Below, one piece after another: positions 239-3,860 of a DNA stretch of 64,000 nucleotides (the first letter of the stretch is position 1; the number at the start of each line of letters is the position of its first letter). The notes below the pieces were generated by a model. The model was not told the origin of the DNA. It was given only the letters and a program-made list of their open reading frames with translations, and did no database searches. This stretch comes from Luteolibacter yonseiensis (GTDB lineage Bacteria; Verrucomicrobiota; Verrucomicrobiia; Verrucomicrobiales; Akkermansiaceae): assembly GCF_016595465.1 (NCBI RefSeq), contig NZ_JAENIK010000011.1, positions 558,001 to 622,000 of the forward strand. The letters run 5' to 3'. The translations under genes were made by a program, and so were the position numbers.

Positions 239-1331
239 TGATCCAGCCCCTATAAAGAGGACACTTTCCGATGAGAGTTTTGCAGGGTAAAACCAGCAAA
301 ACAAACACATGAAAAGAAGGCACAGCGCGGAGCAGATCATCCGTATCTTTGGAGAAATCGAAAACGGTGGCCTGAAGGCTTCCGACGCCTGCCTCCGCAC
401 GGGATCAGCGAGCGGGCCTACTTCCACAGGAAGAAGAAATACGGAGGCATGGATGTCAGCAAGGCGACACGCCTCAAGGCTCTTGAGGAGGAAAACTCCC
501 GGCTCAAGCGTCTGGTGGCCGATCAGGCGTTGGACATCCAGATCCTCAAGGAAGTGAACTCAAAAAAAGTGGTGAGCCCCGTGCAAAAGAAAACCGTCAT
601 CGAGACATTGGTGAGCGCGGGCAGTTGCGGCGTCGCACGGGCTTGCCGGTTGTCCTGCCTAGCACGCTCGGCGGTCTATCGGCGGGCGATGCCCGACGCG
701 TCGTAGATGGCTCAGGAGGGATTGATTGTGGAGACGTCGCGCTCTCATCCCAGCCTGGGCTACCGCAAGGTCACCGCCATCCTGGGGACGGGTACGGCGA
801 GACCATCAATGAGAAACGGGTGGCGCGCCTGCGCCGCCGGGACGGCCTGCAGGCCTCTCGCAAGCAGACGAAACGCCGGCGGATCGAGCCCCGGGTGACG
901 TCACGGCGTGTGGCGAAGCGTCGCGACGAGGTCTGGAGCTATGACTTCATCCAGGACTCGCTGGCGGACGGAACCACGGCGAGGATCCTTTCGGTGATCG
1001 ATGAATACAGCAGGGAGTGTGATGCTGAGATCCGCCCGGAGCTTCCCGTCGAGCCGGGTCATCGACTGCCTGGAGGAGGTGTTGGTGACAACCGGTCGCA
1101 AACCGGAGTGGCTCCGCAGCGACAACGGTCCGGAGTTCGTTGCCAGTCAGGTCCGGGAATGGTTGAAGAGCTCGGGAGTGGGCAGTGCCTACATCACGCC
1201 GGGTTCGCCATGGGAAAACGGTTACGTGAAAAGCTTCCACGCGAGCCTGCGGGCGGAGTTCCTGAACAGGGAACTGTTTTTCAGCATGAGGGAGGTATCG
1301 GTGATGCTGGAGGGCTGGCGTCATCACTACT
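239..1331 (+). mobile_element. degenerate, right-truncated IS3-family insertion sequence
   Basis: The element carries remnants of an IS3-type orfA/orfB pair (see the pseudogene entry). The left end is probably near 239, where TGATCC begins a stretch ending in an AAGAGGACACTTTCCG-like terminal segment, similar in style to IS3-family ends. I found no matching inverted repeat on the right. IS homology stops near 1328-1331, just after the catalytic-Glu region, where the usual distal transposase residues are replaced by unrelated sequence. The element is therefore immobile and truncated. It abuts the 3' end of the neighbouring three-gene operon, which suggests island edges here have been rearranged. 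Confidence 0.8.
309..1331 (+). pseudogene. IS3-family transposase OrfA/OrfB, multiply disrupted
   Basis: OrfA begins at ATG 309 (MKRRHSAEQIIRIFGE, the HTH_Tnp_1 start). It loses frame near 400 by about one missing base, then continues in another frame with GISERAYFHRKKKYGGM and a leucine-zipper-like stretch (LKALEEENSRLKRLVADQ). An in-frame TAG lies at 704-706. OrfB resumes at 707 (SHPSLGYRKV), shifts near 785, carries the first DDE Asp in WSYDFIQDSLADGT, and shifts again near 1017. It then shows the second Asp in RSDNGPEF and the Glu in SPWENGYVKSFHASLRAEF before homology ends. At least three frameshifts, one stop and a missing C-terminus mean no functional transposase can be made. The DDE residues are still readable, so decay is fairly recent. 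Confidence 0.88.
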
Positions 1332-1392
1332 TTCCCAAGTGTCTTGAAAGAATGTTACTGTGCGGAGACTGGCGCCGGTCAACAATTTTTGC

Positions 1393-2271
1393 TCAGCTGA
1401 TTCTCTTTAATCGGACATATGCCGAATCAGCTGCCTTCGCTCGCGAGGATTTTTGCTCTGCTTTTGTCTCAAAAAGATTAGTGGAATCTAGAAACTTATT
1501 TAGTTTTTCAAAACCTAATATTTTATAATCAACCGGCGTATAAGTTTTTAAGTATTTGCCGAGGGCTGCCACTGATGCCCATCCATCAGAGTCGGCTAAA
1601 GTAGCTACGGCGCGCGTTAAATAATCGTTTATTTGAGATTTCGATATATTCCTGTCTTCGGCCGTGGCGATGGGGATCTTAATTGTTTCTGGAGGATTTG
1701 CGGGTCCGACAGTTCTCTTTGAGGTATTTTTTTTATCTTTCGCTATCAACTCGGCCGTTTGGGCCAAGATACTATTCATATTAATAGCCAACTGCCTTGA
1801 GAATTTTTGGCGAAAGTCAGGAATGCCAGAATAACTTTCGGTAAGACCTTTGAGACGCATTTTGTCTTTAAATGTCCGGAGTACGGTGAATTGGTCGATT
1901 TCTATTTTTTCGGGATCAACTGGGCTTTGCGAAAAGTATAGCATTACCGGTTTATCTTTCGTGGTGAATTGTTCGATTTCTTCGGCAGTTCCACTAATTG
2001 ATACGCCTGTGTGAGTTCCAATCCGTGTCCAAAAAACTCCTACCAAAATGTCGCAATCATCAACCAACTGGTTATTGATGATTGCCTGTGGCCTGTTTCC
2101 GAGAAGCGGCGCAGAATGGCTTTCCCATTTGATCGGCATGAGAATTGCTTTGGTTTGCAGTGCTGACACGGCATTCCATTCATTTATGATTTCAGGAATG
2201 ACATTTCGTTCGTCACCAACATCACCAGGTGACGCAATCAGAACCTTGAAAACTTTGGCGTCAAATGGCAT
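1393..2271 (-). CDS. DUF4062/SPGDV-like nucleotide-binding domain fused to a C-terminal OST-HTH/LOTUS domain
   Basis: A 292-aa protein and the last gene of a three-gene operon, 17 bp after the CHAT gene. Residues 8-125 form a Rossmann-like domain starting FKVLIASPGDVGDERNV, with DILVGVFWTRIGT and SGTAEEIEQF. This resembles DUF4062/SLOG/TIR-like families that sense or process nucleotides; the Glu in SGTxEE sits where deoxyribosyltransferase- and TIR-like folds carry a catalytic Glu (inference). Residues about 227-270 (DGWASVAALGKYL, then ILGFEKLNKFL and LFETK) fit the OST-HTH/LOTUS winged-helix fold, known for RNA or protein binding. There is no signal peptide or membrane segment, so it should be cytosolic. 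The ATG at 2271 has no clear Shine-Dalgarno. Base composition is more AT-rich than the flanking core genes. Its exact activity is unknown. Confidence 0.72.
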   Translation of the reverse strand: MPFDAKVFKVLIASPGDVGDERNVIPEIINEWNAVSALQTKAILMPIKWESHSAPLLGNRPQAIINNQLVDDCDILVGVFWTRIGTHTGVSISGTAEEIEQFTTKDKPVMLYFSQSPVDPEKIEIDQFTVLRTFKDKMRLKGLTESYSGIPDFRQKFSRQLAINMNSILAQTAELIAKDKKNTSKRTVGPANPPETIKIPIATAEDRNISKSQINDYLTRAVATLADSDGWASVAALGKYLKTYTPVDYKILGFEKLNKFLDSTNLFETKAEQKSSRAKAADSAYVRLKRIS

Positions 2272-2288
2272 ATGTAATTGTTTGGAGG

Positions 2289-3233
2289 TTATAGTAGTAC
2301 GACATTGTCGGAATCCACGCTGGGACGAGAGAATAATTGGAGCAGATGATCCCCGGGTAATCCTTCCATAACTAGGGTTGACCTGGCTTCTCGGAATGCC
2401 CGCTGCACCGAATGTCCAAAGCCAATCGCACTGTAGAAAGATGCGGAGAAAGCTATTGCGGACGAATCATCAATTTCTCCAGATATTCCGACTACGCAGT
2501 CAATAGCTTTGGATATTTCCTTGGCTGCCATATCGGAATAACACGAATTCAGAAAAATAATCCGTATGTTGTCCTTCATAGTTTCAAATGCATCTGCCAG
2601 CGCTTTAGGAGAAACGAGTTTTGAATTGCCAGCAGCATCTTCAAATGCGATTCCGCCATTAGGTGCGCCGTGACCCGATAGATGAACAATTTGAGGATTT
2701 ATTTCATTTAAGTATTGAAATAAATCAGCGGGTCTTACGGCCCACTTGCTTTTGAAATTGAGATTGGCGCGGAATTCTGAAGTTCGGATTTTGTTCTCGA
2801 TCTCTCGAGTTTCTTCATCAAGTCTAAGCCGATCCTCATTTAAAGGGCCTAAACCTAGGAATAGCATATCTATCGACTTGGTGCTAGATTTTTTGGGGGC
2901 GCCGCCAAGGTGGGGAATGGATCCAATCCTTGAAATAAGCCGACTTTCCATTTCTTTGATGCCGCTTGCTGTCAAGCTCCAAGTGCGAGAGTTTTTAGTT
3001 GTGGAGAAATCGACAAAATGTCCACTTTTTCCTAGGCAATCGCTAACATTGATCGAATTTGCCTTTGGTGTCCTAGCTTGCGAAAGGTGCTCTCTAATTT
3101 CACCACTTGAGAGCGGATGCATGCCTTTTGCATGGACCTTGTAATACAAGACATACTGACACCTCTCAACATTGCTTCGCGAGCTTTTAAGGAATTCGAT
3201 AAGCGTCATAGGTGCTTCAATTGGTAGGAGCAC
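2289..3233 (-). CDS. CHAT-domain (caspase-like) cysteine protease with N-terminal winged helix
   Basis: A 314-aa protein counted from GTG 3233; an ATG at 3209 (residue 9) is equally possible. Residues about 22-98 look like a winged helix. The CHAT fold follows: IVHLSGHG supplies the candidate catalytic His (H188) and IIFLNSCYS the candidate Cys (C231). Downstream VVGISGEIDD and AFSASFYSAIGFG match the conserved CHAT C-terminal pattern, where the active-site region is followed by a helix and a FYxAL-like motif. CHAT proteases are caspase relatives, often in prokaryotic conflict systems where activation cleaves a partner or kills the cell. It lies 15 bp after the small winged-helix gene and 17 bp before the LOTUS gene. 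The small upstream protein is a plausible regulator or substrate (inference). Confidence 0.82.
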   Translation of the reverse strand: MLLPIEAPMTLIEFLKSSRSNVERCQYVLYYKVHAKGMHPLSSGEIREHLSQARTPKANSINVSDCLGKSGHFVDFSTTKNSRTWSLTASGIKEMESRLISRIGSIPHLGGAPKKSSTKSIDMLFLGLGPLNEDRLRLDEETREIENKIRTSEFRANLNFKSKWAVRPADLFQYLNEINPQIVHLSGHGAPNGGIAFEDAAGNSKLVSPKALADAFETMKDNIRIIFLNSCYSDMAAKEISKAIDCVVGISGEIDDSSAIAFSASFYSAIGFGHSVQRAFREARSTLVMEGLPGDHLLQLFSRPSVDSDNVVLL

Positions 3234-3248
3234 TTAGAGGATCGAGCT

Positions 3249-3860
3249 TTATTGGCTATCCCCTCTTGCTTGAGTCACTAACGTAATGGCATTTTTGATT
3301 CCTTCTTCGGTGAGAAACCATTTAGAACGACCCTTGCTAGTATCTTCATTTACCCATGCGGGCTTTTTCTTGGTTTTGAAATTGCCAAAATCTCTGGACA
3401 CGTTTGAGGCTCGAATCGTATTCGCTTGTCTGAAGTGTTTGTTGAAAGACGTTGCAATGGCTACTGCTGAAAGTTCTTTGTGCTCGGTTTGTTCAGTAGT
3501 TATATACAAAAACCATAATGCCTTGTCGGCTGTCGACCACTCTTGTTTAGGGCTTCCCCATTTTTCAATATCGTTTCTAAATTCGATGGCTTCCGAATCT
3601 TCCGGGGTGGCAGTTTTAGAGGATCCATTGGATGAAGGCTTGCGTTTTTTCTTTCCGTCTCGGGTGGGATTGCTGGGGATTGCGTCGATATCTATAACTT
3701 TGTCATCCTGAGGTTTGGGAGATACCAAGTTGGCAGAAGGTGCCAAAAGTCCTCCTAATTGATCATTCAGGGTTTTGGATATTTGGTTTGCATCTTGACG
3801 GTCTCCTTCGATCTCAATTTCAAGTCCGGTAAGTTTTAAACGCATTTTGAATTTTGCCAT
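3249..3860 (-). CDS. small winged-helix protein, first gene of the CHAT/LOTUS operon
   Basis: A 203-aa protein with no function I recognise. Residues 1-40 are a beta-rich segment (KFKMRLKLTGLEIEIEGDR, then a helix ending LGGLLAP). A charged, low-complexity linker follows (about 45-95, lysine-rich KKKRKPSS). Residues about 105-195 form a winged-helix-like domain: WSTADKALWFLYI, SAVAIATSFNKHFR, ASNVSRDF, and a wing ending KWFLTEEGIKNA. The same spacing and pattern occur in the N-terminus of the next gene's protein, including the SxTWSLTASGIKEM-like end. This shared module suggests the two proteins pair or compete for one ligand (inference). It leads the operon; 3861-4035 upstream must hold the promoter, but I see no clear hexamers. 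Confidence 0.7.
   Translation of the reverse strand: MAKFKMRLKLTGLEIEIEGDRQDANQISKTLNDQLGGLLAPSANLVSPKPQDDKVIDIDAIPSNPTRDGKKKRKPSSNGSSKTATPEDSEAIEFRNDIEKWGSPKQEWSTADKALWFLYITTEQTEHKELSAVAIATSFNKHFRQANTIRASNVSRDFGNFKTKKKPAWVNEDTSKGRSKWFLTEEGIKNAITLVTQARGDSQ

Follow-up and report, generated by a model that had tools for sequence, protein, structure and literature searches.

The window, a 64,000-nucleotide stretch of Luteolibacter yonseiensis DNA, carries three adjoining minus-strand genes for which a role in conflict or defence, as first proposed, is likely, and the domain calls behind that proposal proved right. Our preferred reading, to which we give about an even chance, is that they were acquired horizontally and serve abortive infection through two functional pieces, an NADase and a protease module, in one likely operon. 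The features concerned are:

3249-3860, minus strand: P0001 gene, intact ORF of 203 aa
2289-3233, minus strand: P0002 gene, intact ORF of 314 aa with a GTG start
1393-2271, minus strand: P0003 gene, intact ORF of 292 aa
approximately 240-1347, plus strand: IS3-like insertion sequence with broken ORFs, adjoining the 3' end of the operon

The original observation of three tightly spaced genes was confirmed by the ORF coordinates, which leave 15 bp between P0001 and P0002 and 17 bp between P0002 and P0003. Translation of P0002 may instead begin at an ATG at residue 9 (position 3209), because its alignment with the phage protein P0005 (see below) begins there, and this start would widen the first gap to 39 bp. 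No terminator-like site was found on the minus strand in either gap, and the three genes are likely co-transcribed as one operon. A simple promoter scan yielded two sigma-70-like sites in total (4.9 expected), both on the plus strand and none on the minus strand, and 14.5 kb of the locus gave no Rfam match to a structured RNA. With a GC content of 0.424-0.444 and a GC3 of 0.397-0.406, the three genes are, as had been claimed, AT-richer than core genes, the GC3 of the two neighbouring ribonucleotide reductase genes being 0.907 and 0.868. The adjoining IS is likewise broken, its reading frames being disrupted; it is the sole long copy in the genome, where two short similar stretches occur elsewhere. 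The AT-rich stretch continues to the left of the window for about 2 kb at 39% GC, and besides the IS remnant the region has a second AT-rich gene pair. Beside the ribonucleotide reductase gene, P0001, P0002 and P0003 gave no match in any of the eight related genomes compared, in stretches of 9.7-12.2 kb each, mostly downstream; the eight were chosen from 27 genomes, out of 41, in which the reductase gene itself was matched. Past this gene, all that links the relatives to the far left flank is a set of weak protein matches.

P0003 consists of an N-terminal DUF4062 TIR-like, NADase-type domain, a long helix, a linker and a C-terminal LOTUS/OST-HTH domain, in agreement with the DUF4062-like plus LOTUS architecture first proposed. 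It matches the PADLOC model PDC-S60 (3e-31), which recognises all 32 DUF4062 proteins scanned, and its Pfam DUF4062 score (22.2 bits) falls just below the cut-off of 24.7, which is also missed by three of the five plasmid relatives scanned; the LOTUS domain scores 34.5 bits (cut-off 23.8, E 1.9e-8). In a preprint of May 2026 (PMC13174449), DUF4062 is presented as a TIR-like NADase and as the executioner of the antiphage system Swarozyc (Swz), which acts by NAD+ hydrolysis and abortive infection, is activated by the phage portal and has E97 as catalytic glutamate in KpSwz; the preprint measured antiphage and NADase activities for DUF4062 proteins, and one Swarozyc gene on its own protected E. 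coli, its auxiliary domain being required for defence. The counterpart of KpSwz E97 in P0003, within the motif SGTxEEI, is either E98, invariant in 32/32 DUF4062 proteins, or E97, present in at least 90% of them. The predicted fold is TIR/NDT-like: with pLDDT of at least 90 in all but two of the first 17 blocks of ten residues, it aligns with the nucleotide hydrolase DNPH1/Rcl (120 residues, Z 12.7, rmsd 2.5) and with TIR domains (129 residues, Z 10.7, rmsd 3.1), which agrees with the published finding. Since DUF4062 is the Swarozyc NADase, an effector of this type fits P0003 better than the nucleotide-binding sensor first suggested, LOTUS being its candidate sensor.

The structure model is of low confidence in the LOTUS part and in residues 186-206, the stretch that leads from the long helix to LOTUS. 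Over 21 viral-contig relatives the DUF4062 part is 38-58% identical (58%, 55% and 52% in the nearest three); a single-protein scan of viral contigs returned none, and an alignment-based search was needed. A DUF4062 profile matched no PDB sequence at E≤0.1, and P0003 alone matched 2kpm (E 0.0029) and 2kzv (E 0.021), both through LOTUS. Among the 32 DUF4062 proteins scanned the fusion to LOTUS was found in P0003 alone, it was seen in 0/29 loci that other members of the phylum provided, and the P0003 C-terminus stands apart among the 31 DUF4062 C-termini compared. The LOTUS domain of P0003 has look-alikes in proteins from its own genus and order; it showed no sequence similarity to the winged helices of P0002 (z 1.1) or P0001 (z -1.5), and a kinship with them was set aside.

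P0002 comprises an N-terminal winged-helix-like region and a C-terminal CHAT cysteine-protease domain (PF12770, 27.8 bits, cut-off 24). The predicted dyad H188/C231 was borne out, being unchanged in 7/7 aligned CHAT domains, P0002 included. The nearest PDB chain is 8tl0 (E 2e-9), named 'CHAT domain-containing protein' in its entry, which we take to be a SAVED-CHAT protein. Here too, relatives in viral contigs were found only by an alignment-based search and none by a single-protein scan. In local alignments with shuffles (segments cut by hand, 10 pairs compared), the P0002 N-terminus matched the C-terminal part of P0001 with z 7.4 (0/1000 shuffles as good) and, more weakly, the phage P0001 homologue (z 3.9, 5/1000), while hhalign with two-row profiles gave P0001 and this segment a probability of 25% (P 8e-4). 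The P0002 N-terminus is probably a winged helix related to that of P0001.

P0001 itself is predicted to contain a conserved N-terminal strand-strand-helix, a variable linker and a C-terminal winged helix. The probable winged-helix assignment is based on secondary structure, taken from a model of low confidence (mean pLDDT 35), and on the similarity to the P0002 N-terminus. P0001 matched no known family in Pfam, PADLOC or NCBIfam at E≤1; PHROGs gave one weak match (E 0.29), plasmids none even at E 10, and a profile search of the PDB nothing. Five phage records matching at E 4 to 10, four of them annotated as baseplate hub, were judged to be chance, and so were matches outside this genome, in eight others, and an additional match within it (search at E≤0.1), which were short, had E values of 0.015 to 0.09 and in three cases contained internal stops; two scans of genome contigs relying on short exact peptides confirmed nothing. 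We regard P0001 as a candidate sensor or adaptor.

A phage contig (L040) encodes a full-length P0001 homologue, P0004 (tblastn E 2e-30, 34%), whose gene lies 2 bp upstream of that of P0005. Identity between P0001 and P0004 amounts to 18/23 in residues 1-23, 4/22 in residues 24-45, 8/47 in residues 46-92 and 40/111 in residues 93-203. The N-terminus of P0005 aligns with that of P0002 (z 8.7, 0/1000 shuffles as good), a match not seen by BLASTP, and is without direct similarity to P0001 (z 0.2) or P0004 (z -0.9). Its C-terminus differs from that of P0002 and is weakly DUF4145-like (14.8 bits, below the cut-off of 23.1). Homologues of P0004 were found neither in plasmids or phages (E 0.01) nor in viral contigs beyond L040, and the same was true of P0005. 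Because P0002 and P0005 have similar N-termini, different C-termini and a P0001-family neighbour, P0001 and a winged-helix effector may form a two-gene module with exchangeable effectors, CHAT in our case; the idea draws on two loci, and the P0001 family on two sequences. As first suggested, the small protein may plausibly hold or feed the protease, and the phage pair lends this idea mild support.

The abortive-infection reading can be put as follows. The first piece would be P0003, a Swarozyc-like protein whose DUF4062 domain would stay inactive until the C-terminal winged-helix domain meets its trigger, whereupon NAD+ would be hydrolysed and the infected cell would stop. As the trigger-reading domain would be LOTUS, a winged helix predicted to bind RNA, it probably responds to a phage protein, to an RNA or to an assembly of RNA and protein. 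The second piece would be P0001 with P0002, a sensor or adaptor with its effector, in which the winged helix of P0001 would pair with the related one of P0002; behind it would lie the effector, which is a CHAT protease in our locus and, in the phage, a DUF4145-like domain that is perhaps HEPN. What was observed are the domains, the catalytic residues, the common composition, a phage pair whose second protein ends differently and the scattered distribution of the parts; co-transcription, the winged-helix pairing, the triggers, the catalytic activity of these proteins and defence are inferred.

We surveyed the co-occurrence of the three families in 99 sources: besides the window these were 98 loci, a good number of which span no more than about 3 kb; some overlap, and many of those from whole genomes reach just 1.5 kb either side of the match. 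Seven sources represent the region of the window itself. Elsewhere, DUF4062 occurred alone in 34, CHAT alone in 21 and P0001 alone in three, these three being one phage contig retrieved three times. No retrieved locus outside this genome held even two of the families. Among these sources, therefore, the expected co-occurrence of homologues of the trio in other genomes was not seen, and a three-gene system conserved elsewhere is unsupported; as for a single undescribed system, the three genes are real and tight, but support for it does not extend beyond this locus. The neighbourhoods read comprised 6 of 59 CHAT and 9 of 192 DUF4062 plasmid records, and in viral contigs 21 DUF4062 loci (among the matches listed) and four of six CHAT loci.

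Compared with described systems, P0003 shares with Swarozyc the N-terminal DUF4062 domain, the catalytic-type glutamate and the long helix, and it ends in a domain of the winged-helix family that may correspond to the Swarozyc auxiliary domain; this domain is LOTUS, in the place of the sensor, and the P0003 gene adjoins a protease pair. The claim that no described system has this set is thus contradicted in part, by the DUF4062 gene; the trio itself occurred in no other locus retrieved. Stand-alone CHAT proteins of phages and plasmids carry a CHAT domain 39-42% identical to that of P0002 (five aligned), with the same catalytic motifs, but by eye they begin with what looks like a coiled coil, and a P0001 partner was not found alongside; both of the two scanned matched the PADLOC candidate PDC-S66. 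SAVED-CHAT and TPR-CHAT (Csx29)/Craspase also use a caspase-like CHAT protease as a plug-in effector in bacterial immunity, but P0002 matches neither SAVED (Pfam) nor TPR at E≤1, and the SAVED_CHAT model matches it only at positions 308-452 of 498. LOTUS domains are known from bacterial NYN-LOTUS proteins (OST-HTH family, PMC2848206), but P0003 has an NADase-type domain in place of their NYN nuclease; NYN gave no match in P0003 and was present in 3/3 related LOTUS proteins scanned. Nuclease-protease pairs and canu (caspase-nuclease) are bacterial immune systems in which a protease, encoded next to a second effector enzyme, activates its partner (PMC12799240); our locus differs from canu in having an NADase-type domain instead of an MBL nuclease, and Pfam, PADLOC and NCBIfam showed no nuclease family in P0001, P0002 or P0003. 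Among open-licence PMC papers, whole-word searches found none with CHAT and DUF4062 together and no mention of PDC-S60 or of Swarozyc in this spelling, a name that probably takes an accent; among the matches listed, judged by title and abstract, nothing fitted a winged-helix-CHAT pair or a bacterial LOTUS in conflict or phage defence.

The preferred reading must be weighed against a looser and a tighter arrangement of the same parts. That two unrelated defence units landed side by side in a hotspot, functionally unconnected and perhaps each with its own promoter, is in our view rather unlikely, though it is the strongest of the rivals: in the neighbourhoods read, relatives of the DUF4062 and CHAT parts move independently of each other, either on their own or in different company, the phage carries the P0001-family pair without DUF4062, and the region contains the remains of an IS as well as a further pair of AT-rich genes. 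Against this stand the short gaps (15, or 39, and 17 bp) on one strand, the nearly equal GC3 and the lack of a minus-strand terminator-like site in the gaps. The close co-directional spacing and nearly equal GC3 are also what a single three-part system would lead one to expect, in which P0001 and/or LOTUS sense infection and the CHAT protease cuts P0003 or an inhibitor, freeing the NADase. The low-confidence stretch at residues 186-206 of P0003 could be a cut site in the model, and the partner-activating proteases mentioned above offer precedents, as does the CHAT protease Csx29, which cleaves a partner protein (PMC10028731). However, none of the other loci retrieved combined the three families, and a lone Swarozyc gene protects E. 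coli; its auxiliary domain is needed for that, and therefore removing LOTUS by cutting might inactivate P0003. We consider such a cascade improbable.

Very improbable, to our mind, is a regulator accompanied by stress or housekeeping proteins, the winged helices being ordinary transcription factors without a role in defence. P0001 by itself does resemble a small DNA-binding protein, but this reading is at odds with the activities measured for DUF4062 proteins (PMC13174449), the occurrence of relatives of all three parts on phages or plasmids, the foreign composition, and the failure to find the genes at this site in 8/8 relatives.

At its most far-reaching, the locus would be a three-part suicide circuit: a CHAT protease gated by winged helices would cut a LOTUS NADase that reads RNA or particles, or else the inhibitor of that NADase, together with an undescribed P0001-family platform that swaps protease and HEPN-like effectors; for this combination we see a slim chance, marginally below that of the cascade. 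We know of no earlier pairing of a protease with an NADase, and a working link here would be the first. LOTUS is a predicted RNA-binding fold that has been studied mainly in animal germ granules. If P0003 is active, Swarozyc, whose winged helix reads the portal, would be extended to sensing by LOTUS, and a role of bacterial LOTUS in immunity would become directly testable. The P0001-family pair, if true, would represent a new adaptor presenting exchangeable killing domains.

The original prediction of three tight minus-strand genes was borne out, since all are complete ORFs separated by gaps of 15 bp (P0001/P0002) and 17 bp (P0002/P0003):

3249-3860, minus strand: P0001 (203 aa), complete ORF
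2289-3233, minus strand: P0002 (314 aa), complete ORF
1393-2271, minus strand: P0003 (292 aa), complete ORF

As had also been proposed, the block is AT-richer than the core genes: GC is 0.42-0.44 and GC3 0.40-0.41 in the trio, versus a GC3 of 0.87-0.91 in the adjacent ribonucleotide reductase genes. The broken IS expected beside it lies to the left and is IS3-like, its reading frames disrupted. This AT-rich stretch looks foreign to the genome, beside a core gene; the ribonucleotide reductase gene was matched in 27 of 41 genomes of the genus, and no match to the trio was found next to it in the stretches fetched from eight of those 27. Just past the left edge of the window lie two further AT-rich genes (39% GC; L039:8108-9992, minus strand), possibly another mobile defence pair, one encoding a P-loop ATPase weakly similar to AriA/AAA_15 (Pfam AAA_15 E 0.002, under the cut-off) and the other a 171-aa protein without any family match.

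In Pfam, P0003 matched LOTUS (OST-HTH) over the cut-off and DUF4062 just under it, while the PADLOC candidate model PDC-S60 matched at 3e-31. With the limits used, PDC-S60 matched 32 of 32 aligned full-length DUF4062 proteins and Pfam DUF4062 25 of them, and E98 in the SGTxEEI motif was invariant across the alignment. The AlphaFold model of P0003 has a pLDDT of at least 90 in 15 of the first 17 ten-residue blocks. Among 1000 chains realigned, its top PDB match was the nucleotide hydrolase DNPH1/Rcl (Z 12.7), followed by other deoxyribosyltransferase-like enzymes and TIR domains (RPS4/RRS1, Z 10.7; SPARTA TIR, Z 10.4). These matches agree with a May 2026 preprint (PMC13174449), which describes DUF4062 as a TIR-like NADase distantly similar to TIR and NDT domains, and the Swarozyc antiphage system as made up of bacterial DUF4062 proteins whose auxiliary domain, at the C-terminus, is of HTH/winged type. 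By sequence and predicted fold, P0003 is thus a DUF4062 NADase-type protein. Relatives of its DUF4062 part are spread over 192 plasmid records among 72,556 (E<=1e-3) and over 21 loci in viral contigs. In the phylum, 29 of 387 genomes matched P0003, the window's own counted; in the rest the match lay at one end of the protein, either DUF4062 or LOTUS.

Where P0003 differs from Swarozyc is in its auxiliary domain, a LOTUS. Grouping the DUF4062 proteins by C-terminal part (31 of them, one of the 32 being too short) gave 12 groups, with P0003 the sole member of its own; OST-HTH/LOTUS was present in P0003 only, and besides DUF4062 no Pfam family was found in more than two of the 32. The phylum search with P0003 yielded 32 match rows besides its own copy. 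Loci were available for 29 of these and contained the DUF4062 part only (15) or the LOTUS part only (14), never both, and the three rows without loci span the DUF4062 part only. All three LOTUS relatives scanned in the genus were NYN-LOTUS proteins, the usual bacterial LOTUS arrangement according to PMC2848206. Given this solitary fusion and these relatives, P0003 probably arose when a NADase of Swarozyc type acquired a LOTUS domain, possibly from a host protein of the NYN-LOTUS kind. Another DUF4062 auxiliary domain recurs in six proteins (L064-L066, L068, L071 and L072), with a G+W...GG..W.FSK-like motif by eye.

With packaging proteins as queries, relatives were found near DUF4062 in a Salmonella record and in 6 of the 21 viral loci, several of the six being near-identical phages. 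Terminase or portal genes adjoin Swarozyc-type DUF4062 genes in prophage loci L054, L068, L069, L071, L072 and L078. The published Swarozyc senses portal, the activator in the case studied being a phage portal protein (PMC13174449). Proximity to packaging genes, found also for the phage gene pair described below, identifies a common cargo site in phages; by itself it is no guide to what is sensed. The discussion of that preprint mentions that some DUF4062 genes share operons with diverse enzymes. Two-gene layouts with the DUF4062 gene second and differing partners were seen at L053:3642-6578 and L060:4227-5852. In Caulobacter a TIR gene ends and a DUF4062 gene starts on consecutive bases, and in Amycolatopsis an RHH-YfbU gene precedes one by 3 bp.

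The CHAT protease anticipated for the middle gene was confirmed, the last ~195 residues of P0002 belonging to a CHAT subfamily in which a His-Cys pair is invariant (7/7). P0002 had matches in 59 plasmid records among 72,556 and, in the phylum, in 7 of 387 genomes, its own included; neighbourhoods were read for six of the 59 and some of the genomes. The N-termini of the relatives differ from that of P0002. They are coiled-coil-like, by eye, in Halobacillus, two Shewanella, Cytobacillus, genome G184, Rhodococcus and prophage loci L113, L114 and L118 (PADLOC candidate PDC-S66 matched both relatives of this type scanned), and of STAND-WD40 type in L117; in G269 the N-terminus is a helical domain associated with pAgo. 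With N-termini so varied, the CHAT domain is, on sequence comparison, a module that behaves as a plug-in. Fourteen staphylococcal plasmid records (H18-H28) partially matched the subfamily, covering roughly half of P0002; the single record looked at (L024) has an annotated CDS of ~141 aa near metal- and drug-resistance genes. The G269 relative, from the same genus, belongs to a three-gene row (L035:4375-10771, plus strand) that starts with a class II prokaryotic Argonaute (PADLOC pAgo_II, 2e-201), continues with a protein whose N-terminal half matches pAgo-associated 'Helical-REase' models and whose C-terminus is the CHAT protease, and ends with an NB-ARC protein with PPR repeats; the best 12 of 17 literature matches on pAgo-CHAT held no fitting description.

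A winged helix akin to the C-terminal part of P0001 appears to make up the first ~100 residues of P0002 (local alignment 7.4 s.d. over shuffles, 0/1000), although the hhalign probability of 25% counts against this kinship. P0001 matched no described family, was found only in its own genome in the phylum (1/387) and the order (1/288; both E<=1e-3), and was not found in plasmids. One viral contig (L040) carries a full-length homologue, P0004, with 78% identity over residues 1-23, 18% over 24-45, 17% in the linker and 36% in the C-terminal part, so that constraint is strongest at the N-terminal tip. Two bases downstream starts P0005 (241 aa), whose first ~90 residues resemble the P0002 N-terminus (8.7 s.d., 0/1000 shuffles; not detected by BLASTP) but not, in direct comparison, P0001 (z 0.2). 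Its C-terminus is weakly similar to DUF4145/DUF5677 (E 0.02-0.03, below the cut-off), which we take to be HEPN-like. A layout like P0001 plus P0002 thus appears to recur in a phage, with another effector in second place. Right after P0004 and P0005 come a terminase gene, itself a weak match, and then a clear portal gene (E 2.7e-53; L040:7986-14304, plus strand). The picture of P0001 is the one that could change most under a wider profile search.

Whether the trio is one system, as originally predicted, is a separate matter: tight spacing and shared strand and composition speak for it, but in a census of 99 sources (overlapping loci counted separately, many short) no two of the three families were found together besides the window's own seven, the others including 34 DUF4062-only, 21 CHAT-only and 3 P0001-only sources (one contig). 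Whole-genome searches covered one phylum, and the contig scans rely on short exact peptides. No terminator-like site was found in the trio's gaps on the minus strand; a promoter scan, which says little outside the sigma-70 consensus, gave no minus-strand site.

The lack of pairing elsewhere would suit unlinked neighbours, a reading that we consider less likely than the favoured one in view of the spacing, common strand, shared composition and terminator-free gaps. These same features, as marks of one system, would fit a true protease-NADase cascade, for which protease-activated bacterial effectors are precedents (PMC12799240 and PMC10028731) and a flexible stretch of the P0003 model (186-206) offers a possible cut place. 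Against such a cascade stand the missing co-occurrence and the protection of E. coli by single Swarozyc genes (PMC13174449), and we regard it as the least probable of these three readings. Weighing spacing, strand and composition against the lack of co-occurrence and single-gene protection, we favour, with about an even chance of being right, a likely operon that combines two abortive-infection pieces and in which P0003 would be the NADase-type piece beside a protease piece.
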